Positions 21,524 to 50,444 of a stretch of 64,000 nt of DNA are shown here, in pieces. The stretch spans positions 868,001 to 932,000 of the forward strand of contig NZ_CP102275.1 of assembly GCF_025149465.1 (NCBI RefSeq). The letters are read 5' to 3'. The notes beneath the pieces were generated by a model. It was not told where the DNA came from and made no database searches. It worked only from the letters and a program-made list of their open reading frames with translations. Origin of the DNA: Thomasclavelia spiroformis DSM 1552 (GTDB lineage Bacteria > Bacillota_I > Bacilli_A > Erysipelotrichales > Coprobacillaceae). The stretch's first letter is position 1. Each line of letters opens with the position of its first letter. The position numbers were made by a program, and so were the translations under genes.

Positions 21524-22716
21524 TTAGAAACAACATCAAGATTTATACTGTATTTATATGGTTTGTGTTGTTGATCAATTTTAATAATATTATTTTCATG
21601 ATTAATTTTTTTGATTATTGCTCGAATGCTTTGTTCGCTGTAGTTAGTGATTTTAACAAGTTGCGTCATTGTAAAACCTTCAATCCCAAATAATGTGACT
21701 TGTAAAATTAATTCAACTAATGACTGGTATTTAGAATCAACGTATTTACATAATTTTTTTACCGTATAATTGTACACATTAATCGTATCTTCAATTTTTT
21801 CTTTCAATTCTTGAAGACCTGATAAATATATTTCTAAAAAATAAATGATAAAAACAGTTAAATCACTTTTATTTCTAATATCATTTGTCAAAGTGAAGGC
21901 TTCATAATATTTTTTGTTATTATGTGTGCAAGCAATAGAAAACTGAAGTGCACATAATATATTTAAATGATTAGCTAAATAACCACTTGCTAAAAATCTA
22001 CCCATTCTGCCATTACCATTATAAAAAGGATGAATATATTCAAATAAATAATGAAACACAGCAATTCTTATTAAAAAATTAATATTTTCATTATTAAGTA
22101 TTTTTAATGATTTTTCAATCATGTCAATAATATTATTTTCTCCCACAATTCCTTGATGAATAACTTTAGTTCCAGAACTAATTTCAACACTACCTTTTCT
22201 AAATATCACACCATCAGGTTTATCTTTTTCATCTTCGTTGATAACATCTTCAAGAAGAATTTCATCATACAATGCTCTAATATCCGATACTGAATTTAAT
22301 TTTAGAAATTGTTCTTTCCTTAGTTTTTCATATTTATTAATCATTCCTGAAAATCTTTTATAATTTTTAGGAGTATTATTAATAAGCATATCTTTTAATT
22401 CTTTTCGTGTACTATATATCCCCTCCATTTGATTAGAACTTCTAATTTCCTCGACAAGGGTGCTAATGATTAAATATTCTTTTGCTAAATTTGGTAATGC
22501 ATCAGAAGCCATAGTTTTTTCTAACCATGTATTTAGCATATAGATTTTATCAAGCAAAGATAAAATTTCATCATTGATTAAGTAAAAACATTCATATTCG
22601 TTATTTAATTTTATTTCTAAATGATTAGTTGTTTCACTATTAAATCTTTTAAAATATAATTCATTACATTTGTTTTCATCAATATGAAACATCTTTTTTA
22701 ATTGTATATATTTCAT
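21508..22716 (-). CDS. Fic family protein (predicted AMP-transferase, class II)
   Basis: The frame is open from 22767, but the ATG at 22716 (MKYIQLKKMF) has GAGGAAAAT just upstream and is chosen, giving 402 residues. The Fic catalytic motif HPFYNGNGRMGR begins at His229. An N-terminal inhibitory motif SNQMEG (Ser94 to Glu98-Gly99) fits the S/T-x3-E-G pattern of class II Fic proteins, which are self-inhibited. The C-terminal ~70 residues (QLVKITNYSEQSIRAIIKKI) look like a winged helix. Fic enzymes attach AMP to target hydroxyls; the target here is unknown. It is a single gene with its own terminator at the edge of the defence region. Confidence 0.9.
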   Translation of the reverse strand: MKYIQLKKMFHIDENKCNELYFKRFNSETTNHLEIKLNNEYECFYLINDEILSLLDKIYMLNTWLEKTMASDALPNLAKEYLIISTLVEEIRSSNQMEGIYSTRKELKDMLINNTPKNYKRFSGMINKYEKLRKEQFLKLNSVSDIRALYDEILLEDVINEDEKDKPDGVIFRKGSVEISSGTKVIHQGIVGENNIIDMIEKSLKILNNENINFLIRIAVFHYLFEYIHPFYNGNGRMGRFLASGYLANHLNILCALQFSIACTHNNKKYYEAFTLTNDIRNKSDLTVFIIYFLEIYLSGLQELKEKIEDTINVYNYTVKKLCKYVDSKYQSLVELILQVTLFGIEGFTMTQLVKITNYSEQSIRAIIKKINHENNIIKIDQQHKPYKYSINLDVVSKLKEL

Positions 22717-22767
22717 AATATTTTCCTCTTTTTTTATATTATTATCATAACATATGAAAATAATCAA

Positions 22768-26222: not shown

Positions 26223-28103
26223 ATGATGAATAATAAAATAATGTATGATTCTTTTGAATTATTATATGTATATATAAAAAAGATAGATCGATGTTTTGAA
26301 GATACGTATTTTAGTTTTACAAATGATTATGATATAGAATATGACTATGATAATAAAAGATTAAAAATTGTTAAAAAAGATGCTTCTGTTTTAACAAATT
26401 TTTTCAGTAATAAAATTAAATCAATTAATTTAATAGTAGGTAAAAATGGTTGTGGTAAAACTACATTATTTGATTTATTAGGTTTAAAAAGAGTAGACCG
26501 CTATGAATTGTTTACTTTTGATAACAAAGATAGAAAAACAGGTTGGTTTGCTCTATATAAATGTGGAAGTACTAATGAATTTTATGTTGAGGGATTTAAT
26601 CCTGAATTATTGTTTAAACCACAAGAATTGATAAATGATCAAATGATTAATCAGTTATATGCAATTCATTTTTATTATGATTTTGAAACAATGATGATGC
26701 ATGAAAAATTCTTTTCAAATAGCGACACACATATTAATTTATCCTTTTTATATTACCACAAAGAAATAATCAAATCACAATTGTTACCGAATAAGAAAAT
26801 AGTCACTAGTGCTGGAGATCCGTCCTATTTAATTAACCGTAAATATATAAAAACAGGTAATTTAGCTAATCTATATTATTTAGCAAGCAATAATTATAGT
26901 TTCTTTAAAGAAGTAGAAAGTAATAATTTAAAAATTATGATAAAATTTATCAAAAATAATAATTATCAGTTTGTTGAATTATCTGAAATATTAAAAAATA
27001 AATTTAGTAATTTAGAATATTTAAATTTAAAAGTACAAGAGCGTTATCGTTATATTTTATTAAAAAACATTATTTTTGAAGGATATAAAATACTTGAGAA
27101 TAGTGAAAAAAGAAATGAGTATTTATTAGAAATAAAAAACATCGATAAAGATCTAACAACGATTACAAAAATAAATTTAATGTGTAGCATTGCCTGTGGA
27201 TACATAAAAAAATATGGATACAACTTTTTAAGTTATAGTTATTTAGATACTCTTTGTCAAAAAATTAGTGAATTGCCAGATAGTTATTTAAAATACAAAT
27301 GTTTAAAATATCAAAATGACAGTCATTATGTTGATGATTATTTAGGAATTGAAATTAATTTAAACGAGCAATTTAATCAAAATATATATGATGTCTTAGA
27401 ACTTTATGAATTGCTTTGTAATCATCTTAATTTTGATAACTTAAAAAAATTTGTTCAAATTCATTTAAACAATAATATCAGTGAAGGAGAACTCCAATTA
27501 ATAAATACTTATTCAGGTATTTATTATGCATTAACTAATGAATACAAAAATCAAAAATCTGCAATTATTTTATTAGACGAACCTGATAAATCATTTCATC
27601 CAATGTGGATATCATCTTTTATTGATAATTTAGTTAAATTAGTTGAATCTATAGATAATGAGATGCAATATCAATTTATTATCTCTACTCATTCACCATT
27701 TATGTTATCTGATATACCTAAAGATTATATTACATGCATTGATATTGTTGATCATCAACGAATTGTAAGTAAAGCTAAGAAGTCTTTTGCTAGTAATTAT
27801 TATGATATTATTAAAGATACATTCTTTTTAGAAGATAGTGTAGGGATGTTTGCTAAAAGGAAAATAAATGAGATGATTGAAGTAATTAATAATATTGATA
27901 ATAATATAAATGAAAAAAATTTTAAAAGAATTAATGATATGATATCAGTTATTGATGATGATTATTTAAAAAATATTTTGCATAGTGAACTAAATAAAAA
28001 AATATCTAATTTTAATCAAAAAATAGCGCTTGAATTAGAACGAGAAAATCTAATAAAACGAATTAATGAGATTTCTATGAAATTAGGTGAATTAAATTAT
28101 TAA
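26223..28103 (+). CDS. ptuA: AAA/ABC-type ATPase, PtuA-like component of a Septu-like defence system
   Basis: This 626-residue ATPase has Walker A VGKNGCGKTT (Gly73-Thr81), an ABC-like signature SEGELQLINTYSG, Walker B AIILLDEPDKSFHP (Asp452-Glu453) and the switch histidine region FIISTHSPFML. About 350 residues of mostly helical insertion separate Walker A from the signature, as in OLD/RecF-like defence ATPases. The next gene encodes an HNH nuclease, the gene pair that defines Septu. TAGGTGG precedes two tandem ATGs. The C-terminus (residues ~560-626) is predicted coiled coil. The Septu label is inferred from domain pairing. Confidence 0.78.
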   Translation: MMNNKIMYDSFELLYVYIKKIDRCFEDTYFSFTNDYDIEYDYDNKRLKIVKKDASVLTNFFSNKIKSINLIVGKNGCGKTTLFDLLGLKRVDRYELFTFDNKDRKTGWFALYKCGSTNEFYVEGFNPELLFKPQELINDQMINQLYAIHFYYDFETMMMHEKFFSNSDTHINLSFLYYHKEIIKSQLLPNKKIVTSAGDPSYLINRKYIKTGNLANLYYLASNNYSFFKEVESNNLKIMIKFIKNNNYQFVELSEILKNKFSNLEYLNLKVQERYRYILLKNIIFEGYKILENSEKRNEYLLEIKNIDKDLTTITKINLMCSIACGYIKKYGYNFLSYSYLDTLCQKISELPDSYLKYKCLKYQNDSHYVDDYLGIEINLNEQFNQNIYDVLELYELLCNHLNFDNLKKFVQIHLNNNISEGELQLINTYSGIYYALTNEYKNQKSAIILLDEPDKSFHPMWISSFIDNLVKLVESIDNEMQYQFIISTHSPFMLSDIPKDYITCIDIVDHQRIVSKAKKSFASNYYDIIKDTFFLEDSVGMFAKRKINEMIEVINNIDNNINEKNFKRINDMISVIDDDYLKNILHSELNKKISNFNQKIALELERENLIKRINEISMKLGELNY

Positions 28104-29220
28104 ATTAGATATCAAAATATATGATAAAATTAAGGATGATTATTTTAATGAAATAATTAAAGAAATTAAAAATAATTATGTTTCTAGTAATAATTGTTAT
28201 TTTAAAAATGTTTGTGTAAGTGATTTTTTTGAAGATAGTAAAGGTTTTAGTGAAAATAAAATAAAAAAGATTATTTTTATGGATTTTGTAGATATAAATA
28301 ATAATGATTCACTTTTAACAAACTATTTAAAAACAGGTTTATTAATTCGTTATAGTGATTTTAAAATAGATAATGCTTTAAAGGATTTAAATCAATCCAT
28401 TACCCAAACTAATCGATATACTTATCGGCAAAATTATATAAGAATATATTTTAATGATTGGATAAATGATTATTTAATTAAATATCCTGATTATTTTAAA
28501 AATGATAATGAGTTTAAAAAACTAATTAATGCAATTAATCAAAAATATGATAAATTGAATCAAGAATTTATTAAAATAATCAAATATGATTACCTTAGTT
28601 CATCATTGCGACATAAACTCATTACATCAAGTGGTATTACCGTATGTCCATATTGTAATCGTCAATATATTTCATATTTTAGTAATAAGGGTGTAAAATA
28701 TACAACAGCTGATTTAGACCATTTTTATCCAAAATCTATTTTTTCACTATTTGCTTTATCTTTGTATAATTTTATTCCAGCATGTCAAATTTGTAACCAA
28801 AGGTTTAAAAAGAAAAAAGTGAAAAAGATCTTGTATCCTTTTAAAGAAGGATTTGATAATAATGCTAAATTTGGTTTAAATATACATGATGTAAATAGTT
28901 TTTATGGTAAAAACGATAATTTTGATTTAATGCTTGAAGTTGATGATAATTCTTTAATCAAAGAAGAAATTATTAATAATAATGAAATGTTTCATTTAGA
29001 TTCATTGTATCAGCATCATAAACCATATGTTCAAGAATTATTAATGAAAAAGAATTTGATTTATACTAATAGTTATTTTGATATGATGAGTAAAACTTTT
29101 AAAAAACTTAATCTTTCAAAAGAGCAGTTAGATATCTTTTTATATGGCTATAGTTTTGATGATGATATAAATAAAGATAAAATCTTAAGTAAGCTTACAA
29201 AAGATATATTAGATAAATAA
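28099..29220 (+). CDS. ptuB: HNH endonuclease, PtuB-like component; probable ATT start overlapping the ATPase stop
   Basis: The HNH core is VCPYCNRQY, TTADLDHFYPKS and FIPACQICNQRF, with Cys-x2-Cys pairs as metal ligands. The first ATG is at 28279 and has no ribosome binding site. The frame is open and protein-like back to 28096 (KLDIKIYDKIKDDYFNEI...), with no ATG, GTG or TTG. AGGTGA at 28085-28090 lies eight bases before ATT 28099, whose last base overlaps the ATPase TAA. ATT start and coupling are therefore inferred, giving 373 residues. If the start were 28279, the protein would have 313. Confidence 0.72.
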   Translation: MKLDIKIYDKIKDDYFNEIIKEIKNNYVSSNNCYFKNVCVSDFFEDSKGFSENKIKKIIFMDFVDINNNDSLLTNYLKTGLLIRYSDFKIDNALKDLNQSITQTNRYTYRQNYIRIYFNDWINDYLIKYPDYFKNDNEFKKLINAINQKYDKLNQEFIKIIKYDYLSSSLRHKLITSSGITVCPYCNRQYISYFSNKGVKYTTADLDHFYPKSIFSLFALSLYNFIPACQICNQRFKKKKVKKILYPFKEGFDNNAKFGLNIHDVNSFYGKNDNFDLMLEVDDNSLIKEEIINNNEMFHLDSLYQHHKPYVQELLMKKNLIYTNSYFDMMSKTFKKLNLSKEQLDIFLYGYSFDDDINKDKILSKLTKDILDK

Positions 29221-29812
29221 TTATTTTATGTATGATTGAATAAATCGATATATTTTTTAGAGTAGATTTTTGTAGAAGAACTATAACGAATAAAAAGATG
29301 TATAAGAAAGAAAAGACTGTATAATAACCTTTGAAAAAGTTATTATTACAGTCTTTATTTTCTTGATAAATCTTTTCTAACAGCTTTATCATAATCTTGA
29401 ATATTTTTATAACTTCATTAATTTGCTGAGTTTCTTGTGGATTAAATAAATACTCAACTATTTTTGTAGGAATAACAATAATTGCACTTATAACTGAGGC
29501 GAATGCTGTAATCAAAGCAATAATATTATTGTTTAGAAAATATAAACATATAAAAAATCCAATAACAATTATTAGTAAAATAACAAGTAATCCAATTAGA
29601 AAAATTTTTTTATTTGATTTATTACTATCTAATGTATCTTTTAAATATTTTGAATAATTTTCTAAAATAGTTGAATATATTTTATTTCTGTCATCTAATT
29701 CTTTTTCATCATTTTCTTTGTGAGGTAAATCTTTTGAAGAATTAATATGGGTTAAATCATCAATTACATTATTACCAGAAAACTCACTTAATCCATTGTT
29801 AAGATTATTCAT
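29195..29812 (-). CDS. Two-to-three-helix membrane protein with N-terminal polar domain, partner of the ImmA-like gene
   Basis: Residues ~1-66 are polar. Two helices follow (FLIGLLVILLIIVIGFFICL and the region around IIALITAFASVISAIIVIP), then PTKIVEYLFNPQETQQINEV. This pattern is seen in small bacterial membrane proteins near peptidase or defence genes; it may belong to the TRADD-N-associated membrane group, but this is unsure. It overlaps the upstream ImmA-like gene by eight bases. The last ~50 residues read through a strong inverted repeat (29312-29356) and overlap the end of the HNH gene, so the native C-terminus may be near residue 155. Confidence 0.55.
   Translation of the reverse strand: MNNLNNGLSEFSGNNVIDDLTHINSSKDLPHKENDEKELDDRNKIYSTILENYSKYLKDTLDSNKSNKKIFLIGLLVILLIIVIGFFICLYFLNNNIIALITAFASVISAIIVIPTKIVEYLFNPQETQQINEVIKIFKIMIKLLEKIYQENKDCNNNFFKGYYTVFSFLYIFLFVIVLLQKSTLKNISIYSIIHKIIIYLIYLL
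29312..29356. terminator. Bidirectional hairpin terminator between convergent genes
   Basis: AAAGACTGTA (29312-29321) pairs with TACAGTCTTT (29347-29356), and TAATAAC (29322-29328) pairs with GTTATTA (29339-29345), leaving one bulged T. That is a 17-base-pair stem with a ten-base loop and T-rich sequence on both sides. It lies after the HNH gene on the plus strand and inside the minus-strand membrane-protein frame. Confidence 0.72.
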
Positions 29813-30416
29813 TATCCAACTCTAATTCTTCAATTCGGATTCTTACTGCTGTTTCAGGAACATTAAAAATATCTGATAGCTTTTTAATAATTGTTTCTTT
29901 ATCTTTTTTGTCTTTTAAAAGAGCTTTATATGTATTTGAAAAAGAACTAGCTGGCATGAGAAATGAAGCTGCAAAACGATTAGCTCTTAATTCACTATCT
30001 GTTTGAGATTCATTAGTTCTATATGAATTAGAATATTCTTCTGATGAGTCATTTATATAATCTAATATATAATGAGCTATTTCATGTGCTAGGGTAAAAA
30101 GAATATGTTTATCAGTATCTTGATTATTTAAGATAATAACTTTATCGCTACCATATTTTTTTCGAAGTTTATTAGAAATACCAATTGTTCCAGAAAGGTT
30201 TCTATCATCGAATCGAGCTGTGAATACTTTAAATCCCATAGCTTTTGCAATTTAAATAATTGGAGTTCTTTCATTTTTTTTGAATAATCCATATTCAGGA
30301 TTATTTAAAAATTTATCTAATAGCGTTTGAGCATCATTATCTATTTCTTTTAAATTAAAAAAATTGGAAAAATCTTTTCCATGCTGTTCTTGATAATTTA
30401 ATAATTCTATACACAT
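29805..30416 (-). pseudogene. ImmA/IrrE family metallopeptidase interrupted by one in-frame stop
   Basis: From ATG 30416 (MCIELLNYQEQHGKD), eleven bases after GGAGGG, the frame runs to TPII, then TAA (30252-30254), and continues in the same frame as IAKAMGFKVFTARFDD. The downstream part holds the zinc motif LAHEIAHYIL and NRFAASFLMP of ImmA/IrrE peptidases, which cleave phage-type repressors. Residues after the stop can restart at ATG 30239, leaving a 144-residue protein with the catalytic motif but without its first 59 residues. A single base change would restore the full gene. No XRE repressor partner is adjacent. Confidence 0.75.
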
Positions 30417-31063: not shown

Positions 31064-31873
31064 ATGGATAGTTTGATAAACAAAATAACTTTATATGATT
31101 TAACAGCAATGACTTTACCAGGGGCAATTTTATCATTAATAATCATTAGTTTAGTACCTAATGAATTTAAACAAATTTATAAAGCAATTGATAATGGTTT
31201 TATTATTGGGATTTTATTTTTTTTAATAAGTTATTGTATTGGATGGATATTATCACAGCTAAGTAAATGTTTATTTTATATGGAAAAAAATTATAAGAAA
31301 AAATATTCTCTTTCATTTATACCAATAATAATTTTATTAATTAGTATGATTATTATGGCTTGTTTTTTTCAAGGCGATAATAGTTATTGTATAAAGTTAT
31401 TTGTTTCAACAATAATTATTATTTTATATTTTATTTGTATAATATTATTTCCAAATAAACAAAAAGATAAAGAAAAAATACAAAATGATTTTTTGATTAA
31501 AGAAGGTTATAAAGCATTAAAAGAGTATTATGGAGATAATAATTTAACTGAAGAAAACTTAGTAAAATATTTAGCACCATTAGTACATGGTCTAATTCAA
31601 ACTGATCAAAAATATATTAGAATTCATAATTATAGTTCTTCTAAATCATTTTCAAAAAATTTAGCTGGAGCTTGTTTATTTTTAGGAATATATTTTTTAT
31701 ATAATTTTTTATTATCTAATGGAATAAGATTTGATATTATTTATTTTTTGGCATATTTATTAAGTATTATTGCAGTTATTGTTTTACAGTTTAGATATAA
31801 GTTTTTTGAAGATAAAATGAATATCTTAAATATAACATATTTTATTGATTTTGTGAAAAGTAGAAAACAATGA
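31064..31873 (+). CDS. Multi-pass membrane protein encoded first in the RADAR operon
   Basis: The 269-residue protein starts after GAGAGGGGAAAG. The N-terminal segment ITLYDLTAMTLPGAILSL leads into about four membrane helices in residues 15-130. A charged cytoplasmic-type stretch covers residues ~131-190, and two more helices lie at about 195-245. It is 24 bases from rdrA. RADAR loci can carry accessory membrane proteins (Csx27 or SLATT types). This one is longer than Csx27 and has more helices than SLATT proteins, so it is left unnamed. A membrane effector or anchoring role is inferred from position only. Confidence 0.72.
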   Translation: MDSLINKITLYDLTAMTLPGAILSLIIISLVPNEFKQIYKAIDNGFIIGILFFLISYCIGWILSQLSKCLFYMEKNYKKKYSLSFIPIIILLISMIIMACFFQGDNSYCIKLFVSTIIIILYFICIILFPNKQKDKEKIQNDFLIKEGYKALKEYYGDNNLTEENLVKYLAPLVHGLIQTDQKYIRIHNYSSSKSFSKNLAGACLFLGIYFLYNFLLSNGIRFDIIYFLAYLLSIIAVIVLQFRYKFFEDKMNILNITYFIDFVKSRKQ

Positions 31874-31897
31874 ATAATAAAAGAGGGGGAAATTAAA

Positions 31898-34800
31898 GTG
31901 AAAGAAAGCATAAACAATAACGGTATTGGTGTTCATCATGGGGCTAGAGAAATCAATGTTGATTTTTTAAAACAATCAATACCCGGTTTAGACGATCTAG
32001 ATAATACAATTAAAAGATTTAGAGAAGTAGCTTATAACTACAATAATAATAAAAATATTGATAAAAGCGAATATTATGACGAAAAATTCAATAATAATAT
32101 TTCAATCTTAGCAGGAAGAGGAATGGGAAAATCATCAGCTTTAATTACTATCATTAGTCAAATTGAATCAAATCAATATTTTAAAGAAGTTGAAACTAAA
32201 AAAAATTATATTGATATTATAAATCCAATGATTGATCCTGAAGATATAAATGAAAACTCAGATATACTAGGATGGGTTATTACCTCATTATTTGAACAAG
32301 CAAATCAATTAGAACAAACAGACTCTAAAAAAAGTGATTTAAATTATTATTTTAATATCGATAATTCAATCCATCATGATTTACAAGAAAAGAAAAAAGA
32401 ACTAATTAGCTATTATTCAATTTATAGTAAAGAATACAGTAATGTAGTCTTAAATAATAGTGTAAATGTACATGATTATAATTCTAATTTAGAAGATATC
32501 TTAACTTTTGATTATAAATTACATAAATGTTTATCAGAATTTATCAACATGATCATAAAATATAAACGTGATATCAATAGACATACAATGAAAGAATTGG
32601 CTGGAGAAAAAATCGAGCCATTAATATATTTTTTCTTTGATGATGTTGATATGTCATCAAAAAAATCAATTAAAATCTTAACTGATATTTTAAGTTATTT
32701 TGCGCATCCTAATATTGTTATTTTTATATCAGGTGATTATCAAGTCTTTGAACAAAGCTTGATGGCGTATTTTATGAGTGAAACTAAAGAAGTAACTTTA
32801 AAAATGTCTTATAAAAAAAGAAAAAAAGAAATAAAATTCGCAAAAGATCGCACAGAATATTTCTTAAAAAAAGTATTACCGCCATCATATCGCTTTTATG
32901 TACAAGAATTTTCTAATGATGCAGCAAAAATAGTTCATCATTATCATTCAAATCGTGATAATATTTTTGAAAGAAAAAATATTTTAGAATTATTAAGTTA
33001 TGTATTTTGTGCTGGTCTTGAAGCTGATAATGATCCTGAAAAAAATGTGTATTTAAAAACTTTTATTGTTCCTAAACCAAACGATAATGATGATTTTGAT
33101 AAAGAGAAGTTAGTAGAATTAAATGATGAAATAAGGATGAATTATTTATATGCTTATTTATCAGTTTTTAGTGTTAATATTCGTGGTTTTATGAATGTCT
33201 ATAATTATTTAGTAAAAGAAGCTGAAAATATTTTTGAATCAGAAGATAAACATAAGTATTGGACTATTAATAAATTTAAAGAATTTTTACGAGTTATTTT
33301 AAATTCAAAACATACTTATCAAAAATATCAAAATAATATCGAAAAGTTTATATATGTTAAAGATCAAACAGATAATAAAGAACAAGAAGATGATTCAACA
33401 AAGAATGATTATACTAAATTAAGAATTGATTGTGAAGAATTGGGCTTGTTTATTAATGAATTAATGAAGAAACTTAAAGATAATCTTGATAGAGTAATAA
33501 TTGATGATGATAATGATAAAGAAGATGATCCAGATTATATAAAAGGGGAAATTAATTCAATTATAATGCTTCCAATTTTAATAAATGAATTATTTTATAT
33601 TATTCATCAAAAAAATTATGAACAAAGATATAAAAGTGTCAAAAATAAATTAAAAAACATTCTTACTAATACTTTTGTTAATTCATTAAACAAAAATATT
33701 CTTCTAATCCCTAATAATTTAGGAATGCGAAGAACACTATGTATTTATTATTTCGTTATTTCACGAATGAGTATCAATTTTTTAGATAAATTACGTAATT
33801 ATTATAGCTATGATTATGATGCTTCTAATAATAAAAAATATATCGTTCAATTATACTATGCAACGATTCAATTAAAAACCGCTGGGGTAAAAAAACAAAT
33901 TTTTGATCAAAAAGCGCCTTTTTCATATGATTGTTATGATGAATATAAAAAGTCTACTTATTCTAATTTAGATAAAAGATTAAAAATTGAAAAAGAAATA
34001 GCTAAAGAAATGAATAACATGTTTAAACATTTAGATCGTGAATGGTTAGCTGATAAAATCAAATTTGCTACAGCAATTACTCCAACTGTAAATAAAATTG
34101 AAAATATTGTACATAATAAATTCTTAGATAAGTTTGGACTTATGCCAATTAATGAAATTACTAAAATATTAGACGAAATGTATACTTTAATTAATCAGGT
34201 AAATGATTCCAATAAGCAATCTAAAAAACTTGATCCAATAATAAAATATTTTTATAAATTAGAAGAACAATTTAAACAAGTAAAAAATCTTGAAGATTCT
34301 AGTTTAATGAAAGTTTATGTAAATAATATTAAAACTAATTTTGATAGTTTAGAATTGCGTAATGAAAATGAAAAAAATGTAGATATATGTAAAAATATTA
34401 GTGAACAAATTCAACGAAGATTAGAAAATCGATTAACTGATAAAAACGATGAAAATAATGAAGATATTAATAAAATTAAAGCATTATTAAATTCTTTAGA
34501 TGATTTTAAAATGGAATTTGAAGTTTTAGCTGATCGTTTATCTAATTTATATAATAGTGGCTATGATGAAATAGTTGATACATTGTATGAACAAATATAT
34601 TATCATTTTGATATTGATATCGACATTATAATTGAAAATAGTAATGATGATAAGTTGTTTGATCAGATAAATGATAAAATATTAGATATACAATTAGATT
34701 GTTTGGATCGTAATCGAGAAAAATTAATTGATGATTTAAATAAATTAGTTCGAAATCTAAAGACAAGTGTAAGAGCAAATGGAACTACTGTCCCACGTAA

Positions 34801-35041
34801 TAAAAAATATGTAGGAAATGAAGATATTGCTAATTATTTACTTCGTCAAACATGGAAGCAAGATATGGTAAACAGTGCGGAAATAAAATTTATTATCGAT
34901 ATTATCAAAAAATGCATGAAGTGTTATTATTTATATTTATTTATTTTAGAATATACGCGTGTAGAAAAATTATCTAATGATACAAGATTTTTTAATAACT
35001 TTAAATCAGGAATTGAATATGGAAATCAAACTAAGGGGTAA
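31898..35041 (+). CDS. rdrA: RdrA-like P-loop ATPase of a RADAR defence system
   Basis: The 1047-residue protein starts at GTG 31898 after AGAGGGGGA. Walker A is LAGRGMGKSSA (residues 71-81) and Walker B is YFFFDDVDM (about 245-253), with ISGDYQVFEQSL as a sensor-like segment. The remaining ~750 residues are helical and charged, without a second recognisable domain. Size, ATPase position and the adenosine deaminase partner five bases downstream identify RdrA. In studied systems RdrA forms heptameric rings that cooperate with RdrB during phage infection. Confidence 0.87.
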   Translation: MKESINNNGIGVHHGAREINVDFLKQSIPGLDDLDNTIKRFREVAYNYNNNKNIDKSEYYDEKFNNNISILAGRGMGKSSALITIISQIESNQYFKEVETKKNYIDIINPMIDPEDINENSDILGWVITSLFEQANQLEQTDSKKSDLNYYFNIDNSIHHDLQEKKKELISYYSIYSKEYSNVVLNNSVNVHDYNSNLEDILTFDYKLHKCLSEFINMIIKYKRDINRHTMKELAGEKIEPLIYFFFDDVDMSSKKSIKILTDILSYFAHPNIVIFISGDYQVFEQSLMAYFMSETKEVTLKMSYKKRKKEIKFAKDRTEYFLKKVLPPSYRFYVQEFSNDAAKIVHHYHSNRDNIFERKNILELLSYVFCAGLEADNDPEKNVYLKTFIVPKPNDNDDFDKEKLVELNDEIRMNYLYAYLSVFSVNIRGFMNVYNYLVKEAENIFESEDKHKYWTINKFKEFLRVILNSKHTYQKYQNNIEKFIYVKDQTDNKEQEDDSTKNDYTKLRIDCEELGLFINELMKKLKDNLDRVIIDDDNDKEDDPDYIKGEINSIIMLPILINELFYIIHQKNYEQRYKSVKNKLKNILTNTFVNSLNKNILLIPNNLGMRRTLCIYYFVISRMSINFLDKLRNYYSYDYDASNNKKYIVQLYYATIQLKTAGVKKQIFDQKAPFSYDCYDEYKKSTYSNLDKRLKIEKEIAKEMNNMFKHLDREWLADKIKFATAITPTVNKIENIVHNKFLDKFGLMPINEITKILDEMYTLINQVNDSNKQSKKLDPIIKYFYKLEEQFKQVKNLEDSSLMKVYVNNIKTNFDSLELRNENEKNVDICKNISEQIQRRLENRLTDKNDENNEDINKIKALLNSLDDFKMEFEVLADRLSNLYNSGYDEIVDTLYEQIYYHFDIDIDIIIENSNDDKLFDQINDKILDIQLDCLDRNREKLIDDLNKLVRNLKTSVRANGTTVPRNKKYVGNEDIANYLLRQTWKQDMVNSAEIKFIIDIIKKCMKCYYLYLFILEYTRVEKLSNDTRFFNNFKSGIEYGNQTKG

Positions 35042-35046
35042 TACTT

Positions 35047-37833
35047 ATGGAAAATAGTAAAGAAAATTATTTGCGAATGTTAATTTTATTTTTACCGTAT
35101 TTAGATTGTCGATTTTTCCATAAAAATACATTTTCACAAGAAGAATTAGAAAATGAAATTTTGATGGGAATTGAACATCATGGGCATATTTATAATTTAG
35201 ATATGGTTAAAAGTACGATACAATTTTATTATAGTAAAAATGATACCTATCACTTAGATGATTTTTATGAGATGTTAAAAAATGCTGCACAATCATTATT
35301 AACATATCATCATAATCGTTTATGTATTGATATGTTTGATGATAATATGATAGATGAAGCAAAAAAATATATTTCTTTTTATCATAATAAAACACTTGAT
35401 TATTTAGAATTGAATAAATTGATTGCTGATAGTTTATTAGCTGCATTTTATAATTGTTATAATGATTATGATTTAGAATTTTGTATTAATCATAATATGA
35501 TTCAAACAGTTTCGGTTGTTAATCATCAATTAAATACGATTCTTTTAAAAGGGATTGCGGAAACTCACACGCATATAGTTGGCAGTATTCCTTTTGAAAA
35601 ACAATGGAATTGGCTTGGTCATGAAATTCTTGACCATCATGAAAACGTACGATCAATATTAAAGGCAATTGATGACGATAAATCAGTTAAGTTTCAAAAA
35701 CAACGTTATGGTTATAATGGCAGTTTAATTAATTTAATTATTGCAACGATGATGTTACGTTTATTGCTGATGTTGTATTTAGTGTATTACTTTTATAATA
35801 AAGATGATGATTTAGAAAGTTATTTATGTAAGCTTGAAGAAAAATTGAATGGTAAGATTAAAGCTAATTATGTTAAGTTAATTAATTATTATATGACAGG
35901 ATTAGCTATCGATGATTTTAATTATAATGATTTTGATGGATTGATTGTTGCAATTGAAAAAGTTATTTATAGTTTGAGTAATTATCAAAAAGATGGATCG
36001 TTTTCTAAAAAAGTATATCAAGATTTTGTAAGAAGATTTATCGAAAATAAAGATTTAGATGTTAATAAATATATTGAATATATTTTACAGCATCAAAGTA
36101 TCACTTATATCAAAGAAAAAAATGATCAAAGATTTAAAGAGTTTTTTCTTCATTATATAAGAGTTAAAAACTTTATTCATTCATTTATTGTTCAATCTAG
36201 TGATATAAAAGGCTTTTTAGAATTTCAATATTTCTTTAGAAGACAACATATGATTTTTGATATTCAACCAAATATGTTTAAAAATATTTTTGATACATAC
36301 CTATATGATCAAGTAAAATTTCTAGAAATAAGAATTGGCCATGTTAAATTTAAATACTCAAGTAAACAAGAAAACTATGAAAATCTATATGCTTCAAAAA
36401 TAAATGTTAATGAAACAATAAAAATATATTGTAAAACAGTATTAGACTTTGTAACATCATATTTAACTTTTTTAAAAACATTACCATCAAATAGCTTAGT
36501 TCCTCAAGTAGGTTTGATTTTACATTTTAATAAGCGCTATGATGATATTGAAAAATGTTGGGATAATTATTTTAAAGTAAAAGATGATTCATTGATTAGA
36601 TATAAACAATATCAAGAAGAATGTTTTCTTAATTTAATTATTTTCCAAAAAATTAGAGCAGAAATACCATATGCTGATGAATATTTGATTGGAATTGATG
36701 GTGCAAGTAATGAACTATTTAGTGAGCCATGGATTTTAGCTCCAATTTTTCGTTCAGTTAAAGATAAATATAAATCAATTCTAAAAGATAAAGCTTTTAA
36801 TAGATATGGAATAAAATTATTAGCAACAAAGGATTTAGGAATAACATATCATGTTGGGGAGGTATTTCATTCAATTGCTAGTGGTTTAAGACATGTTGAT
36901 GAAGTAATTGATTATTATGGTTATCAAAATGGAGAAAGACTTGGTCATGGAACAATCTTAGGAATATCGATTGATAGTTATGTAGATAATCATCGAATCA
37001 TTTCATTACCGACAATTGAGCTATTAGATAATTTATTGTGGTTATATCATTTAAAAGCTTATAAAAATTTATTTAAAGATATTTCAATTTCTTATTTAGA
37101 AGAACATATATGGAAAATTACACATTTTATTTATGATATAAATGGACATTTAGGTGGAAATAGTGAAGGAATTAATATTCATCATCTTTATTTAGCCTAT
37201 AAAAAACAATTTACAGGATTAGATTTTGTTAAAGATGAATATTATTTATTAAACTGTGAAGCAAATTTTTCTAATAAAAATTGTATTTTTAAAAATTTTA
37301 AAAATTGGAATGAAGATTTATTATTTTATTCAAGACATTGTCGTTGTTTTTTAAAGAAAATGACACGAATGATTCAAATTGATACGAGTGATAAAACAAT
37401 TATAAATATTTATAAAGAAGCTCAACAATATGTTATTAATAAAATTGCATGTAAAGGAATTATCATTGAAACTAATCCTGTTTCTAATGCAAATATTGGT
37501 GAATTCAATTCAATGAATGATCATCCAATTTTTATGATGAATGATTCTTTTGATAAAGATCATAATCATGTAATGGTAAGTGTTAATACAGATGATCCTG
37601 GTGTTTTTGGGACGACTTTAAAAAATCAATATGGCTTTATTTTACAGGTGTTAATTGATAAAGGGGTACCCATGGAAAAAGCATTAAAATGGATTGATAT
37701 GACTAGAGAAAATGGTTTGAATTCAACATTTATCAATAGAACTAAAAAAACTAAAAAAGAAATTGAAGAAGAATTAAAAGAAATAAAAAGAATTCTAGAA
37801 GAAAAATTAAATAGAAGAGATGATAATAAATAA
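35047..37833 (+). CDS. rdrB: RdrB-like adenosine deaminase of a RADAR defence system
   Basis: The 928 residues hold a split adenosine deaminase fold. ETHTHIVGS gives His174-x-His176, YHVGEVF gives His602 and Glu605, RLGHGT gives His634, and NTDDPGVF gives Asp849-Asp850; IIETNPVSNANIG is the family's conserved strand. These match all zinc and catalytic residues of mouse ADA, so the enzyme should be active. About 425 residues are inserted between the first and second motifs, as in RdrB, which assembles large shells. The family deaminates adenosine or ATP to inosine forms during infection. A terminator follows. Confidence 0.9.
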   Translation: MENSKENYLRMLILFLPYLDCRFFHKNTFSQEELENEILMGIEHHGHIYNLDMVKSTIQFYYSKNDTYHLDDFYEMLKNAAQSLLTYHHNRLCIDMFDDNMIDEAKKYISFYHNKTLDYLELNKLIADSLLAAFYNCYNDYDLEFCINHNMIQTVSVVNHQLNTILLKGIAETHTHIVGSIPFEKQWNWLGHEILDHHENVRSILKAIDDDKSVKFQKQRYGYNGSLINLIIATMMLRLLLMLYLVYYFYNKDDDLESYLCKLEEKLNGKIKANYVKLINYYMTGLAIDDFNYNDFDGLIVAIEKVIYSLSNYQKDGSFSKKVYQDFVRRFIENKDLDVNKYIEYILQHQSITYIKEKNDQRFKEFFLHYIRVKNFIHSFIVQSSDIKGFLEFQYFFRRQHMIFDIQPNMFKNIFDTYLYDQVKFLEIRIGHVKFKYSSKQENYENLYASKINVNETIKIYCKTVLDFVTSYLTFLKTLPSNSLVPQVGLILHFNKRYDDIEKCWDNYFKVKDDSLIRYKQYQEECFLNLIIFQKIRAEIPYADEYLIGIDGASNELFSEPWILAPIFRSVKDKYKSILKDKAFNRYGIKLLATKDLGITYHVGEVFHSIASGLRHVDEVIDYYGYQNGERLGHGTILGISIDSYVDNHRIISLPTIELLDNLLWLYHLKAYKNLFKDISISYLEEHIWKITHFIYDINGHLGGNSEGINIHHLYLAYKKQFTGLDFVKDEYYLLNCEANFSNKNCIFKNFKNWNEDLLFYSRHCRCFLKKMTRMIQIDTSDKTIINIYKEAQQYVINKIACKGIIIETNPVSNANIGEFNSMNDHPIFMMNDSFDKDHNHVMVSVNTDDPGVFGTTLKNQYGFILQVLIDKGVPMEKALKWIDMTRENGLNSTFINRTKKTKKEIEEELKEIKRILEEKLNRRDDNK

Positions 37834-37883: not shown

Positions 37884-37970
37884 AGTTAATAAAAGATAAT
37901 TAATGATTTAAGATAGTTACTGAAAGAAATATGTAGATATGCTATAATGGGATCAAAGAAGCGAGGTGAT

Positions 37971-39597
37971 ATGATGAAAAAAGCTTTACCAATTGGAGTA
38001 GATGACTATCGAAGATTAAAAGAAAATAATTATTATGCAGTAGATAAAAAATTGATGATTGAAGAATTTTTTCAAAGACAGTCGATTGTTACGCTAATTA
38101 CCAGACCAAGAAGATTTGGAAAAACATTAAATATGTCAATGATGGCAGAGTTTTTTGATATCACTAAAGATTCTAAAGAAATTTTTAATGATACTAATAT
38201 CATTAAAAGTCTTTATGCATCAAACATGAATCAATATCCAACTATTTTTGTATCATTTGCTAATGCAAAAGGAGACTAAATCAATGTTGTACAACAGATC
38301 AAAGAACAATTAAGAAATGAATATAATAGTTATGAACATATATTTAATAATTTATCAAAATTTGAAGAAGATGATTATAAACAAGTTATTGATGGATTGA
38401 TGTCTAAAAGTGATGGCAAGCTAAATAACATTATTGATGCATTATCTTTTTTGATGAAAATCTTAGAAAATATTATCAAAGAAAAGACATGCTTTTTATC
38501 GATGAATACGATACCCTATTTATTGAAACACATGTAATGGCTTTTACGATAAAATTAAAAATGGGCTAGCTTCATTACTGCAAAATTCTTTAAAAACCTC
38601 AAATAGTTTACAATATGCCTTGCTTACCGGAATTCAAAGAGTCGCTAAAGAAAATATTTTTAGTGACTTAAATAATTTAGTAGTTTGCACTGTTGAAGAT
38701 CATACATATGATAAATATTTTGGATTTAATGAACAAGAAACAAAAGAATTATTAAAATATTATGATTTAAAATTAAATGAAGATGTAAAACAAATGTATG
38801 ATGGCTATCATATTGTAAATCAGGAAATATATAATCCCTAGTCAATTATTAACTATGCAGATAGCCATGAATTACAACCATATTGGATTAATACTAGTTC
38901 TAATAAAATGATAAAAAAGCAATGATAAAAAGGGATCAAGCTTTTAATCAGGGGTATGAAAAATTAGTTGCTAAGGGATATTTACAAATGTTAGTACATC
39001 TAGATACAAGTTTTTTGAATCTAATCTAGGACGACATCTAGTTTATGGGGACTTTTTGTCAATGCTGGATATTTGACGATAGCTAAAACGATTTCACTTA
39101 GAGATAGGATATATATTATCAAGATTCCTAATCGAGAAGTACAAGAAGAATTTATGAATCTAACTGCATATTATTTAGATGTATTTGATACTTTATTAGC
39201 TGATTTATTTTATGCTTTAAAAATAACTAATCAAAATCTATTTACCACAACATATCAAAGAATTATTAAAAGTTTACCATCGAATTATGATTTAAAAGAT
39301 GAAAACAGTTATCATATGATGATACTAGGGATGTGTGCCTGATTATCAAATGAATATGAAATCATCAGCAATAAAGAAATCAGTAAAGAAAAATGTGATA
39401 TTATCTTAAAAGCAAAAGGTGATTTTACATTATATATCTTTGAATTTAAGTATACTAAAAATAACCATGATAATTTAGATGTTCTTGCAAGTAAGGCAAT
39501 TAAATAAATAGAAAAAAGAAATTATAATTTAAATTTAAAAGGGAAAGTAATTTATGTTGGTTTAGTCCACTTACAAAAAGAAGTAGTAATAAAATGA
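37971..39597 (+). pseudogene. Decayed AAA-ATPase/PD-(D/E)XK nuclease-like gene (PF09820/PF08011 type)
   Basis: GCGAGGTGAT precedes ATG 37971. The N-terminus reads LPIGVDDYRRLKENNYYAVDK and LITRPRRFGKTLNMSM (Walker A). Later pieces are LTGIQRVAKENIFSDLNN and FGFNEQETKELLKYY. The C-terminal nuclease-like part, FTLYIFEFKYTKNNHDNL, ends at 39595-39597. Stops and frame changes occur near 38277, 38500-38540, 38840, 38920-39060, 39340 and 39505. These genes are abundant multicopy families of uncertain function in gut Firmicutes. Fragments at 38620-38841 and 39073-39342 belong to it. Confidence 0.85.
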
Positions 39598-40188: not shown

Positions 40189-40344
40189 ATGAAACAAAAT
40201 ACTAAAGATTATAAAATAACATTTCACTATTTACCAACACAAACTAGTTTAAAAAAAGTATTAGAAAATAATTATCTAAATTATTTAAAAAAACAAGAAA
40301 ATGATTCTACTAAAAGAAAAGGATATTTATATAATGACAAATAA
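40189..40344 (+). CDS. Small 51-residue protein coupled to the serine recombinase
   Basis: GGAGGG at 40178-40183 precedes ATG 40189. The frame reads MKQNTKDYKITFHYLPTQTS, then SLKKVLENNYLNYLKKQ and ends GYLYNDK. Its stop (40342-40344) lies 11 bases inside the recombinase gene, so the two are coupled. It is basic and probably helical in the middle. The good ribosome binding site and overlap argue that it is real. Function is unknown; a recombination helper is a guess from position. Confidence 0.62.
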   Translation: MKQNTKDYKITFHYLPTQTSLKKVLENNYLNYLKKQENDSTKRKGYLYNDK

Positions 40345-41941
40345 TAAATATTTAGTAGGAGCATATGAACGTTTATCAAAAGAAGATGATAAAAAAGATG
40401 AAAGTTCATCAATTGAAAGTCAAAAAATGATTATTGAATCATTTGCAAAATTTAATCAATTAAAAATTATTAAACATTATAGTGATGATGGTTTTACTGG
40501 TTCAAATTTTAATCGACCAGCTTTTGAAGCTTTAAAAAATGATATTGAAAAAGGAATAATTAATTGTGTAATTGTAAAAGATTTATCAAGATTAGGCAGG
40601 GAATTATATGAAACAGGAGGATATATTGAAGAATATTTTTTATCAAAACAAGTGAGATTTATTGCAATTAATGATGGTTATGATTCTAATGTTGGTGATG
40701 CAATGTTAGGAATCAGATTAAGTGTTAATGATTTATATTTAAGAGATACATCGAAAAAAATTCGAAGTAGTTTTGATGCGAAAAGGAAAAAAGGTGATTA
40801 TATTGGTTCATTTGCAAAATATGGATATCAAAAAGATCCTCAAAATCCAAAACATTTAATTATTGACCCCGTTACTTCAAAAATCGTTAAACAAATGTTT
40901 GAATGGGTGGTGCAAGGTCTTGGAACAAGTACGATTGCGCATCGTTTGACTAAAGCAAAAATACCGATTCCCTCTATTTATAAAAAAGAAGATCGAACTA
41001 ATCATCAAAATAAATTAAATGATGGTTTAGGTATTTGGCGTCCCCAAACAGTAAAAAATATTGTTAGTGATCAAATGTATTTAGGTCATATGGTCCAATC
41101 AAGATGGAAAAAACTCAGTTATAATTCTAAAAAACTTGTTGAATTACCACCTTCATCATGGATCATTGTAAAAAACACTCATGAACCAATTGTTAGTCAA
41201 GAGTTGTTTGATGCAGTACAACAAGAATTATCTAAGTATCATAAGTATCGAGCTCATCATGGAAAAAGATTTTTATTTCAAGGTTTGTTGAAATGTAAAG
41301 AATGTGGACATAATCTTAGCATTTCGACAAGAAAGACTAAAAAAAATGTCCAACATTGGACACAATGTAATTACTATTCTAAGTATAGTAAATATGGAAT
41401 GTGTACGTCACATCGGCTAAATTATGATCTTTTAGAAAAAGATTTATTAAAATTTTTAAAATTTGCTGGAAAAAAGTTTTTAGAAGATTATAATTATGAA
41501 TGCTTACTTAATGAAAGTATGCAAATTTGTCAAAAAAAGTTAGTAGAAATTAAGGATGCTTTAAAAAAAGTTCAACGTGAAATATTAAAAAAAGAAAGAA
41601 TGTTAACTCGTTTATATGAAGATCGACTTGATGAGATTATTTCTGTTAAACAGTATACATTAGTGTCAAAAAAAATAGAAAATGAATTAAATGATTTAGA
41701 AGTTAAAAAAAATGAGTTGACTAAATCAGTATTATTGTATAAAAATGATTATTTGGATAATGATATAGAAAAATATAGACAGATGATCAATGATTTTATG
41801 AGTTTTAAATTTCCAACTAATGAATTAATGTTTCAATTAATCGATAAAATAGAAATTGATAAAGATAAAAATGTTGAAGTATTTTTTAAAGTAAATATTT
41901 CTAAATACATTGATATAAATTGTATCGAAGTTGCAAAGTAA
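40334..41941 (+). CDS. Large serine recombinase (site-specific integrase, TnpX/TndX-like)
   Basis: ATG 40334 gives MTNNKYLVGAYERLSKEDD (535 residues); the in-frame ATG at 40301 lies in the small upstream gene. The resolvase domain has the catalytic Ser15 in ERLSKED and VKDLSRLGRELYE. The recombinase domain (~160-270) includes GLGTSTIAHRL and IWRPQTVKNIVSDQMYLG. A zinc ribbon has CKECGH and later Cys residues near 345-370, followed by a long coiled coil (~395-470). These enzymes integrate and excise mobile elements. The stop codon overlaps the first codon of the residual ftsW 3' end, which places the gene at the element border. Confidence 0.92.
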   Translation: MTNNKYLVGAYERLSKEDDKKDESSSIESQKMIIESFAKFNQLKIIKHYSDDGFTGSNFNRPAFEALKNDIEKGIINCVIVKDLSRLGRELYETGGYIEEYFLSKQVRFIAINDGYDSNVGDAMLGIRLSVNDLYLRDTSKKIRSSFDAKRKKGDYIGSFAKYGYQKDPQNPKHLIIDPVTSKIVKQMFEWVVQGLGTSTIAHRLTKAKIPIPSIYKKEDRTNHQNKLNDGLGIWRPQTVKNIVSDQMYLGHMVQSRWKKLSYNSKKLVELPPSSWIIVKNTHEPIVSQELFDAVQQELSKYHKYRAHHGKRFLFQGLLKCKECGHNLSISTRKTKKNVQHWTQCNYYSKYSKYGMCTSHRLNYDLLEKDLLKFLKFAGKKFLEDYNYECLLNESMQICQKKLVEIKDALKKVQREILKKERMLTRLYEDRLDEIISVKQYTLVSKKIENELNDLEVKKNELTKSVLLYKNDYLDNDIEKYRQMINDFMSFKFPTNELMFQLIDKIEIDKDKNVEVFFKVNISKYIDINCIEVAK

Positions 41942-42042
41942 CAGGTGTAACACTGCCATTAATGTCTTATGGGGGTTCATCTTTAACAATAACTTTGATT
42001 GCTTTTGGAATTGTATTAAATATTTCAAAATCAACGTTTTAA
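41938..42042 (+). pseudogene. ftsW: 3' remnant of ftsW at the integration junction
   Basis: In the frame starting at 41938 the sequence reads VTGVTLPLMSYGGSSLTITL, then IAFGIVLNISKSTF and stop (42040-42042). This is the conserved C-terminal segment of FtsW/RodA lipid II polymerases, and murG follows as it does after ftsW in dcw clusters. The 5' part of ftsW is not upstream; the recombinase gene abuts directly. So 34 codons remain on this side of an insertion. Confidence 0.88.
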
Positions 42043-48132: not shown

Positions 48133-48186
48133 ATTTTATGACATATTTTTAAGGTAAAAAGAGCTATGATAACAAGGGGTGAGGTG

Positions 48187-48924
48187 ATGGAGGTATATGT
48201 TGAGGTTACTTTTTTAACGAATTTTTTAATCATTTTATCGTCTTTAGAGATGATGGGGATATTACTTTGTAAAGAAATGAGTTATTTACAAGTTTTAAAA
48301 GAAAGTTTTTTATTAAGCTTTTCGGTTTTGTTATTATATATAGATAGTTATAGTTGGATGATTTTAATTATTTGGTTAGTTATTTTTTATTTGTTATATC
48401 AAAAACAGATATTTTTATATTATCCGGTATTTTTATTTATCTATTTTTCAATTTTGTATTTTGTTAGTTCTTTTATTTATGAATCTTTTATTTATAATGG
48501 CATATTAATTGTACCGGTTAGTTTTAGTAGTTTTGTATTATTTATTGTTGGTTTGTTATTTGTATTGCTTCAAATTATGTTTATTGTTTATTTGAAAAGG
48601 AAAGTAAGAATTAATAGTTATTTATATCCAGTGGAATTATTTTATGCTGGTAAGCAGTATGTATTTAATGGTTTTCTAGATAGTGGTAATGAGGTTTATT
48701 ATGAAGGGTTTCCGTTAATTTTAATTAATGAAAAAATTATTGATAAATATGAAATAATTGATGTTGTTGAGTTAAATGATTTAAGAAGTGATTTTATTGG
48801 TGTAATCAAAGTAGATACTTTGGCAATTAATAATCAATTATTAGAAAATATATATGTAGGGGTTATTAGAGGAATCAAGTATGATTGTTTATTAAATAAA
48901 TCGTTAATGGGGGGCATACTATAA
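48187..48924 (+). CDS. spoIIGA: Sigma-E processing peptidase SpoIIGA
   Basis: ATG 48187 ([17 protein letters not shown]) follows GGGGTGAGG; the ATG at 48166 is upstream of that site and unlikely. Five hydrophobic helices fill the first ~140 residues. The aspartic protease domain holds [16 protein letters not shown], with the catalytic DSGN. In sporulation this membrane protease cleaves pro-sigma-E in the mother cell after a signal from the forespore. At 245 residues it is shorter than B. subtilis SpoIIGA. Its stop overlaps the sigE start (TAATG). Confidence 0.87.
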
Positions 48925-49619
48925 TGATAAAATTAATTTTAAAATTATTAAATAAAACTAAGTATCTTTATTATGTTGGTAGACATGATGTATTACCACC
49001 ACCACTTAATGCTTTTGAAGAAAAAGAAGCGTTAGAAAAATTGGCTAAAGGTGATAATGATGCTCGTGATTTATTAATTGAGCATAATTTACGTTTAGTT
49101 GTATACGTTGCAAAAAGATATGATACTAATCAAAATGGTGGTATTGAAGATTTAATTAGTATAGGAACGATTGGCTTAGTAAAAGCAATCAATACTTTTA
49201 AAACTGATAAAAATATAAAATTAGCAACATATGCATCACGTTGTATTGAAAATGAAATATTAATGTTTTTAAGAAAGAATAATAAGTTACGACATGAAAT
49301 ATCACTTGATGAGCCATTAAATATTGATTATGATGGAAATGAATTGTTGCTTTCAGATATTATTGGTACTGATAGTGATATCGTAAAAAATGAATTAGAA
49401 CAAAGTGATCAGCGAACAATGTTTTATGAAGCATTTAAAGATTTGTCAAAGCGTGAAAAAGAAATTTTAATGTTAAGATATGGTTTAATGAATTATGATG
49501 AATTAACTCAAAAAGATGTTGCTAAAATGATGGGAATTTCGCAATCATATATTTCTAGATTAGAAAAAAAGATTATTAAAAAATTAAGAAATAAACTAAA
49601 TTATAATGAGATAAAATAG
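48924..49619 (+). CDS. sigE: Sporulation sigma factor SigE (pro-sigma-E)
   Basis: The 231-residue sigma-70 factor begins with a hydrophobic/basic pro-sequence ([19 protein letters not shown], then PPPL), the part removed by SpoIIGA. Region 2 shows [31 protein letters not shown] and [19 protein letters not shown]. Region 4 has [12 protein letters not shown] and [21 protein letters not shown]. It directs early mother-cell transcription. Coupling to spoIIGA by overlap is as expected. Confidence 0.94.
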
Positions 49620-49667
49620 GTATAATTTTGTCATATTTGCTAAAAATAATGATGAAAGAAGGCAAAT

Positions 49668-50444
49668 ATGAATAATTATCAGATTATTATAAATGGTTAT
49701 CATGAACCAAGAAAAAAATTAACTACCAAAGAAACATATGCATTAATAGATGAATATCAAAAAACTAAAGATGAAAGAATAAAAGAAAAATTAGTCAATG
49801 ATAATATTAAATTAGTTATTTCAATGACTAAACGATTTTATAATCGAAGTGATGGCTGTGATGATTTGTTTCAAGTAGGTATGATTGGTTTAATCAAAGC
49901 GATAGAAAACTTTAATACTAGTTATGATTTAAAGTTTTCTACATATGCTGTTCCTTTAATTATTGGTGAGATGAAACGTTATTTAAGAGATAATCATCAA
50001 ATTAAAATATCTCGTTCTTTAAAGGATATTGCTTATAAGATATTAAAGATAAAAGATGAATATTTAAATAAGTTTCAAAGAGAACCAACAATCAAAGAAT
50101 TAGCTAAAAAATTAGATATTGATCAAAGTGTCATTGTTGAAGCACTTTTATCAACTAATAGTGTTGCTTCTTTACAAGAAGAGGTAAAAAATAGTGATGG
50201 TAATAGTTTAAAGATGATTGATTCATTAAGTGATGAAAAAGCAGGTGTATTAAAGACTAATGAACGAATTGATTTATATGATGCTTTAAAATCATTAAGT
50301 CAAAAAGAACATGATGTGATAAAGCAAAGATATTTTGAAGGCTTGTCACAAAGTGAAATAGCTAAAGAATTATTTATTTCGCAAGCTCAAGTATCTAGAA
50401 TTGAAAAAAAAGCTTTAAACACTCTACATAATTACCTGAAATAA
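49668..50444 (+). CDS. sigG: Sporulation sigma factor SigG
   Basis: The 258-residue sigma factor has region 2 KLVISMTKRFYNRS, DLFQVGMIGLIKAIENF and FSTYAVPLIIGEMKRYLRD, region 3 REPTIKELAKKL, and region 4 EHDVIKQRYFEGLSQSEIAKEL and SQAQVSRIEKKAL. The short N-terminal arm and lack of a pro-sequence fit SigG, the late forespore sigma factor, and the gene follows sigE as in B. subtilis. AAGAAGGC precedes the ATG. Confidence 0.93.
   Translation: MNNYQIIINGYHEPRKKLTTKETYALIDEYQKTKDERIKEKLVNDNIKLVISMTKRFYNRSDGCDDLFQVGMIGLIKAIENFNTSYDLKFSTYAVPLIIGEMKRYLRDNHQIKISRSLKDIAYKILKIKDEYLNKFQREPTIKELAKKLDIDQSVIVEALLSTNSVASLQEEVKNSDGNSLKMIDSLSDEKAGVLKTNERIDLYDALKSLSQKEHDVIKQRYFEGLSQSEIAKELFISQAQVSRIEKKALNTLHNYLK

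Follow-up and report, generated by a model that had tools for sequence, protein, structure and literature searches.

A large serine recombinase element splits the sporulation gene spoVE in Thomasclavelia spiroformis and in other Bacilli

Introduction

In Thomasclavelia spiroformis DSM 1552 the gene of a large serine recombinase (LSR) ends on the remnant of a SEDS gene of the dcw cluster, which raises the question of which gene has been interrupted and how a bacterium can keep it in two parts. The window, i.e. the whole stretch of 64,000 nucleotides that was analysed, corresponds to G000:C1:868001–932000 of a genome assembled as one contig (2,528,470 bases). An earlier note on this DNA proposed that the element had entered ftsW, an essential gene whose loss would have to be rescued.

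The interrupted gene

The stop codon of the LSR abuts an 11-bp core, ACAGGTGTAAC, at 41941–41951 (the features of the window are listed in Table 1). The same core opens a 34-codon frame ending in ...TGVTLPLMSYGGSSLTITLIAFGIVLNISKSTF, with the stop at 42040–42042, which encodes the C-terminus of a SEDS protein and is matched by Pfam PF01098 with E=8.9e-10 at profile positions 322–353. The open reading frames and the PF01098 match thus confirm that the recombinase ends on a SEDS frame followed by murG, as the earlier note had described, and the junction between the LSR and the SEDS gene is real.

Table 1. Features of the window (positions are those of the window)
Feature	Position	Strand	Remarks
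Cargo: polysaccharide/capsule-type gene block	527–20941	+	ORFs; capsule genes not each annotated
SoFic-like gene	21508–22767	-	defence-like cargo
PDC-M62A/B-like pair	26223–29220	+	defence-like cargo
capP-like fragment	29805–30239	-	defence-like cargo
Cargo: three-gene set, last gene (35047–37833) a distant RADAR RdrB relative	31064–37833	+	
51-aa small ORF (MKQNTKDYKITFHYLPTQTSLKKVLENNYLNYLKKQ...) that overlaps the LSR start; RBS present	40189–40344	+	candidate directionality factor or LSR partner
Large serine recombinase (LSR), 546 aa	40301–41941	+	ORF and Pfam domains
attR: attP-derived half TCGAAGTTGCAAAGTAACAG and spoVE half	41925–41964	+	same 40-bp geometry in seven elements
spoVE 3' part, last ~32 codons plus stop	41945–42042	+	PF01098; without stop or indel
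murG, start of the distal dcw segment	42052–43155	+	murG-murB-divIB-ftsA-ftsZ, to 47293
SpoIIGA-like, SigE and SigG/SigF-type sporulation genes, downstream	48166–50444	+	host keeps sporulation genes

The 5' part of the gene, said in the earlier note not to lie upstream, is indeed absent from the window. It is located at G000:C1:861835–862848 on the minus strand (profile positions 4–328; PF01098 match 861856–862833, minus strand), 48 kb from the 3' part, intact but inverted, and is followed by murD, mraY and HPr, likewise inverted relative to murG. The core ACAGGTGTAAC is common to both junctions, and joining the two parts in silico gives an uninterrupted frame of 358 codons. Genome-wide there are four PF01098 SEDS matches: the 3' fragment, the 5' fragment and two full-length genes.

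The joined protein is ranked by the NCBIfam models as SpoVE (TIGR02615, 413.5 bits) before FtsW (383) and RodA (303); it lies under the TIGR02615 cut-off (413.5 vs 448.8), yet above that of the ftsW model TIGR02614. One of the other two SEDS genes ranks ftsW first (244), the other rodA (220). Among 31 relatives, in which a dcw-type SEDS gene was called at E below 1e-90, such a gene is present in all 17 genomes with SpoIVA and absent in all 14 without it. In sporulating Firmicutes the SEDS gene of the dcw cluster is as a rule SpoVE and is lost along with sporulation, while some Erysipelotrichia show a mixed pattern; in C. difficile SpoVE is dispensable for growth and required for the cortex (PMC10693644), and spoVE of B. 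subtilis is under sigma-E control (PMC517825).

The interrupted gene is spoVE and not the essential ftsW, an identity rejected on the profile ranking and the spoIVA co-occurrence. The proposal of an LSR element within the dcw SEDS gene stands, its naming of that gene as ftsW does not, and since the gene is spoVE the puzzle of a broken essential gene is gone; two other full-length SEDS genes are present nonetheless. Disruption of the division gene ftsW with compensation by another SEDS protein would agree with the position between murD and murG and with the score above the ftsW cut-off. It is nevertheless highly unlikely, as the spoVE model outscores that of ftsW, the co-occurrence with spoIVA is exact, FtsW-like and RodA-like genes are found elsewhere in the genome, and the dcw SEDS genes of sporulating Firmicutes are SpoVE (PMC10693644; mixed in some Erysipelotrichia).

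The recombinase and its attachment sites

The LSR contains the catalytic Resolvase domain (PF00239), the Recombinase domain (PF07508), the Zn-ribbon (PF13408) and the catalytic serine of the YxRxS motif, the full set of features of a large serine recombinase; the motif, YERLS, is invariant across six aligned members. The closest solved relative is the N-terminal domain of TnpX (PDB code 2mhc, E=1.9e-30), and structures of the YokA/SPbeta integrase are among the closest as well (E=3.1e-15). An origin from a phage was considered and rejected: a scan of viral contigs returned only two weak matches (24–31%), and the best tblastn match among phages and plasmids has ~34% identity to the LSR.

Both junctions are genuine half-sites containing the 11-bp core and palindromic attP arms, which bears out the suggestion of one attachment junction with the LSR at the border and the cargo beyond it. 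A 40-bp attP (attP40) has the sequence TCGAAGTTGCAAAGTAACAGGTGTAACCTTGTATTTACGA. In all seven elements where it can be rebuilt, attP is a 40-bp imperfect palindrome centred on GG, with outer arms TCGTAATTNC...GTAATTACGA, and is self-complementary at 22–34 of 40 positions, while attB is non-palindromic. A short core common to attP and attB, a central dinucleotide and a palindromic attP are what is expected of LSR sites. The GG corresponds to codon positions 1 and 2 of the Gly in a PVTG motif, and the symmetry of attP together with the intersection of the shared cores (ACAGG) places the likely crossover there (41944–41945). Because GG is not self-complementary, the orientation of the sites sets the outcome, with direct sites leading to excision and head-to-head sites to inversion.

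Small ORFs of 42–51 aa with an RBS, similar to that overlapping the LSR start in the window, lie upstream of the LSR in 8 of the 11 elements examined; none was found in those of G032 and G034. Counterparts precede the LSRs of loci L015, L019, L037, L068, L073, L074 and L075, looser relatives precede more distant LSRs (L103–L106, L109), and the ORF may accompany recombinases of this group in general. It has no match to a Pfam family, and by its position only it is a candidate recombination directionality factor.

Inspection by eye of the DNA upstream of the LSRs gave no clear match to a mother-cell promoter recognised by a sporulation sigma factor; short AT-rich motifs of this kind arise by chance. 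In the skin element of C. difficile it is the directionality factor and not the LSR that is under sporulation control (PMC5025042), and the lack of a match upstream of the LSR is therefore not decisive.

Distribution of the element

The relatives were surveyed with one genome per species. The LSR is found in 6 of 43 genomes of the family, belonging to three genera, and spoVE is split at the same point in all six; in LSR-free congeners of this set it is unbroken at the insertion point. Within the order the LSR is carried by 9 of 295 genomes, and a scan of genome contigs found carriers in Thomasclavelia, Massilimicrobiota, Longicatena, Erysipelotrichaceae and other Bacilli. Every LSR locus with at least 46% identity (12 of 12) adjoins a part of spoVE, with the insertion at the same Gly codon, while none of the 31 loci at or below 39% identity is at spoVE within the flanking DNA examined. 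Both parts of spoVE are present in all 11 LSR-bearing genomes searched, the break falling at profile positions 322–328, and a recombinase of the same type interrupts spoVE in at least eleven other bacterial species.

The spoVE 5' part of G417 is itself broken once more, at profile positions 228–232, with the pieces 3.6 kb apart (G417:C14:16412–21050), possibly another insertion.

The recurrence of the same split with the same type of LSR in other species indicates neither chance nor an assembly error. The inverted orientation in the window genome is unusual and could by itself raise the suspicion of an assembly artefact or of a duplicated fragment. However, the genome is in a single contig, the 4-kb inverted segment is without strong flanking inverted repeats, the split and the att sites recur in independent assemblies, and the PF01098 search found no second full-length spoVE in the genome; an artefact is extremely unlikely, and LSR-mediated integration into spoVE is almost certain.

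Geometry of the window copy

In the relatives the genes for IGPS, UDG, the bio enzymes, an rRNA methylase, HPr, MraY, MurD, SpoVE and MurG are colinear. In the window genome IGPS, UDG and an AAA-ATPase gene are followed by the inverted spoVE 5' part, murD, mraY and HPr, and then by the segment running from the LoaP gene to the LSR and the spoVE 3' part, while the bio/rRNA-methylase block is found at 2.03–2.04 Mb. This displaced bioY/bioB/bioD–rRNA methylase block is interrupted by integrase, IS and intron-like genes (G000:C1:2030001–2045000, L064).

The other half of the gene, which the earlier note proposed to locate, lies with murD-mraY-HPr on the minus strand, and attL and attR consequently stand head to head, the inverted arrangement of sites known from phase-variable segments. 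The direct orientation required for excision is absent here and is found in the elements of G008 (35 kb), G043 (6.6 kb) and G192 (3 kb). A simple insertion with the 5' part directly upstream, which is true for the relatives, is ruled out here by the inversion of that part. Recombination of attL with attR would for the same reason give a 48-kb inversion and no excised circle, contrary to what the earlier note had implied.

Two routes to this arrangement fit the data: ordinary integration followed by a 4-kb inversion of HPr to attL, which takes fewer steps, or a 48-kb inversion made by the LSR from an unrecombined attP. The first matches the orientation of the G008 island and the strand skew. 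The capsule genes show leading-strand GC3 skew, while the inverted murD and mraY have drifted from the values of the relatives, a pattern that fits an established small inversion better than a 48-kb block flipped recently. No convincing inverted repeats able to drive the 4-kb inversion were found; as to homology across the putative breakpoints, the region upstream of HPr is native and the remainder is uninformative. By either route, recombination of attL and attR would be predicted to invert 48 kb and to restore spoVE.

The LSR might also flip the 48-kb segment back and forth as a phase switch, by recombining attP and attB in cis, with spoVE turned off and on in vegetative populations. The genuine attL and attR, placed head to head, are in line with it, and a flip would yield a clean attB with intact spoVE and a clean attP. 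However, in G008, an ordinary integration, LoaP, capsule genes and LSR are ordered and oriented in the same way, and one local inversion of HPr to attL is therefore enough; the contrast in GC3 skew between the capsule genes and the drifted murD and mraY points the same way; such a switch appears improbable. A programmed 48-kb inversion that rebuilds Thomasclavelia spoVE in sporulation, i.e. a reversible developmental switch derived from an excisable element, in which the capsule and defence island with HPr, mraY and murD is kept, can be proposed tentatively.

Broken AAA-ATPase-like genes lie beside the LSR (window 37947–39342) and beside attL (L005 15101–16686). An AAA-ATPase gene lies near att in most carriers, and genes of this subfamily are found there in G005, G008, G032 and G034; their position and orientation differ, and they cannot serve as markers of the island end to decide between the inversion models.

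Cargo and transfer

The capsule block is preceded by a LoaP-like antiterminator (NF033641 match) outside the window, at G000:C1:865988–866479, and G008 has an equivalent polysaccharide block between its spoVE halves. A LoaP-like antiterminator followed by a gene resembling group II intron reverse transcriptases opens the polysaccharide block (L006 5988–8435). The RdrB relative of the three-gene set scores 154 bits with NF041744, under the 800-bit cut-off, and matches PADLOC RdrB with 5.9e-32, while its partners of 1047 and 269 aa have no family match; the set is possibly a RADAR variant carried by the island.

Among other members the cargo varies. The G008 element contains an AAA-ATPase, a LoaP-like antiterminator, polysaccharide genes and the LSR, and those of G032 and G034 contain ICE-type genes such as ParA/ParB. 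The G043 element carries a secreted esterase-like protein and an AraC regulator, and that of G192 a single oxidoreductase-like gene, these proteins being named from sequence alone.

G032 and G034 share 98.5% identity in their LSRs, whereas their spoVE genes have a synonymous difference of pS = 0.65, and the window LSR is closer to that of Massilimicrobiota (67.6%) than to those of its congeners (62–63%). Both observations indicate that the elements move between species, and since the relationships of the LSRs are unlike those of the hosts, the insertion is recurrent.

A possible role in sporulation

In all six carriers aligned the spoVE halves are without stops or indels, and the pairwise dN/dS of the six split genes is 0.04–0.09, equal to that of intact copies; this value spans the time before insertion, and recent, simply disruptive insertions would therefore look alike. 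The conservation of both halves is thus compatible with continued use of the gene as well as with a recent insertion. SpoIVA was found in 9 of 11 LSR-bearing genomes and not in the draft assemblies of G034 and G192, so that some carriers may not sporulate.

The LSR is proposed to recognise one site in spoVE, with the crossover at the GG of the PVTG Gly codon. Integration cuts off the last ~32 codons, and with them the conserved PLMSYGGSS segment. What is left is a truncated SpoVE, and the element would be tolerated because SpoVE is not needed in vegetative growth. During sporulation the LSR and a directionality factor, possibly the 42–51 aa protein, would restore spoVE in the mother cell by recombining attL with attR, and the element would not be lost from the lineage, as the mother cell dies. 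For most members the outcome of this reaction would be excision. In the window genome, where HPr-mraY-murD-spoVE5'-attL appears to have undergone a secondary inversion, it would flip 48 kb, so that spoVE is rebuilt and the DNA is kept. The activity of the LSR, its timing in sporulation, the directionality factor and the inversion in vivo are parts of this scheme that we infer.

The element interrupts a sporulation-specific coding region (spoVE by profile and spoIVA co-occurrence), and precise joining restores the reading frame in silico. The family fits the class of sporulation gene-intervening elements, the window copy being a rearranged member that is unable to excise. Developmental reconstitution of spoVE is more probable than not, and a spoVE-specific family whose target is rejoined in the mother cell is the reading moderately favoured here. 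The LSRs at spoVE suggest a so far undescribed element family, the removal or flipping back of which would be required for sporulation.

Alternatively, spoVE could be no more than a safe place of integration for a genomic parasite or an ICE-type island. The gene would then be inactivated by the insertion and the carriers would be asporogenous or poor sporulators, with low-frequency excision for transfer and no developmental programme. The ICE-type genes of G032 and G034, the discordance of LSR and host relationships, the two carriers in which SpoIVA was not found and the lack of a recognised mother-cell promoter agree with this reading. Yet the spoVE halves are intact and conserved in every carrier aligned, most carriers have intact sporulation genes, both spoVE parts and the LSR are open here while the nearby AAA-ATPase genes are broken, and the only target in the clade, like those of skin, SPbeta and gin, is a gene of sporulation; a parasite of this kind is possible but doubtful.

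Relation to known elements

Rejoining of spoVE in the mother cell would have precedents in skin/sigK, SPbeta/spsM and gin/gerE, where recombination takes place in the mother cell, a terminal cell (PMC5025042, PMC4191935, PMC5595907). The skin element in sigK (SpoIVCA in B. subtilis; CD1231 with the directionality factor CD1234 in C. difficile) is likewise a serine-recombinase element that splits a mother-cell sporulation gene, is not lethal in vegetative cells and restores the frame by site-specific recombination. The target here, however, is the SEDS peptidoglycan polymerase gene spoVE and not sigK, the cargo consists of capsule, ICE or single genes, the directionality factor is only a candidate, and the geometry in the window genome is inverted.

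SPbeta in spsM (SprA/YokA with SprB) similarly has an LSR and an att site inside a sporulation gene, but is a complete phage, while the spoVE element has no recognisable phage genome and no close phage LSR homolog (best ~34%). Like the spoVE element, the gin element in gerE of B. cereus (GirC/GirX) is an island and not a phage, its cargo varies, and it sits in a sporulation gene (PMC5595907); however, it has three LSRs, whereas the spoVE family has one and occurs in several genera. LSRs of the TnpX/Tn4451 type share the domain plan and include the closest solved relative; unlike them, the spoVE LSRs are dedicated to a single 40-bp spoVE site in every case examined. In the full-text papers searched, which include few subscription titles, spoVE is not described as the target of such an element. 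What is new is the target, the dedication of an LSR clade to it, the unusual cargo and the inverted geometry of one copy.

Few sporulation genes are known to be interrupted by elements with a serine recombinase, and spoVE now joins them. The whole recombinase clade found here is restricted to the spoVE site, in several genera and in more than one family of Bacilli, many of the carriers coming from gut samples. The finding connects spore formation with capsule loci, ICEs and defence genes as cargo, and would explain why a spore-wall gene can lie broken in a spore-former. A group of related integrases whose att sites are defined also becomes available, and the inverted copy of T. spiroformis would allow a direct test of sporulation rearrangement by inversion.
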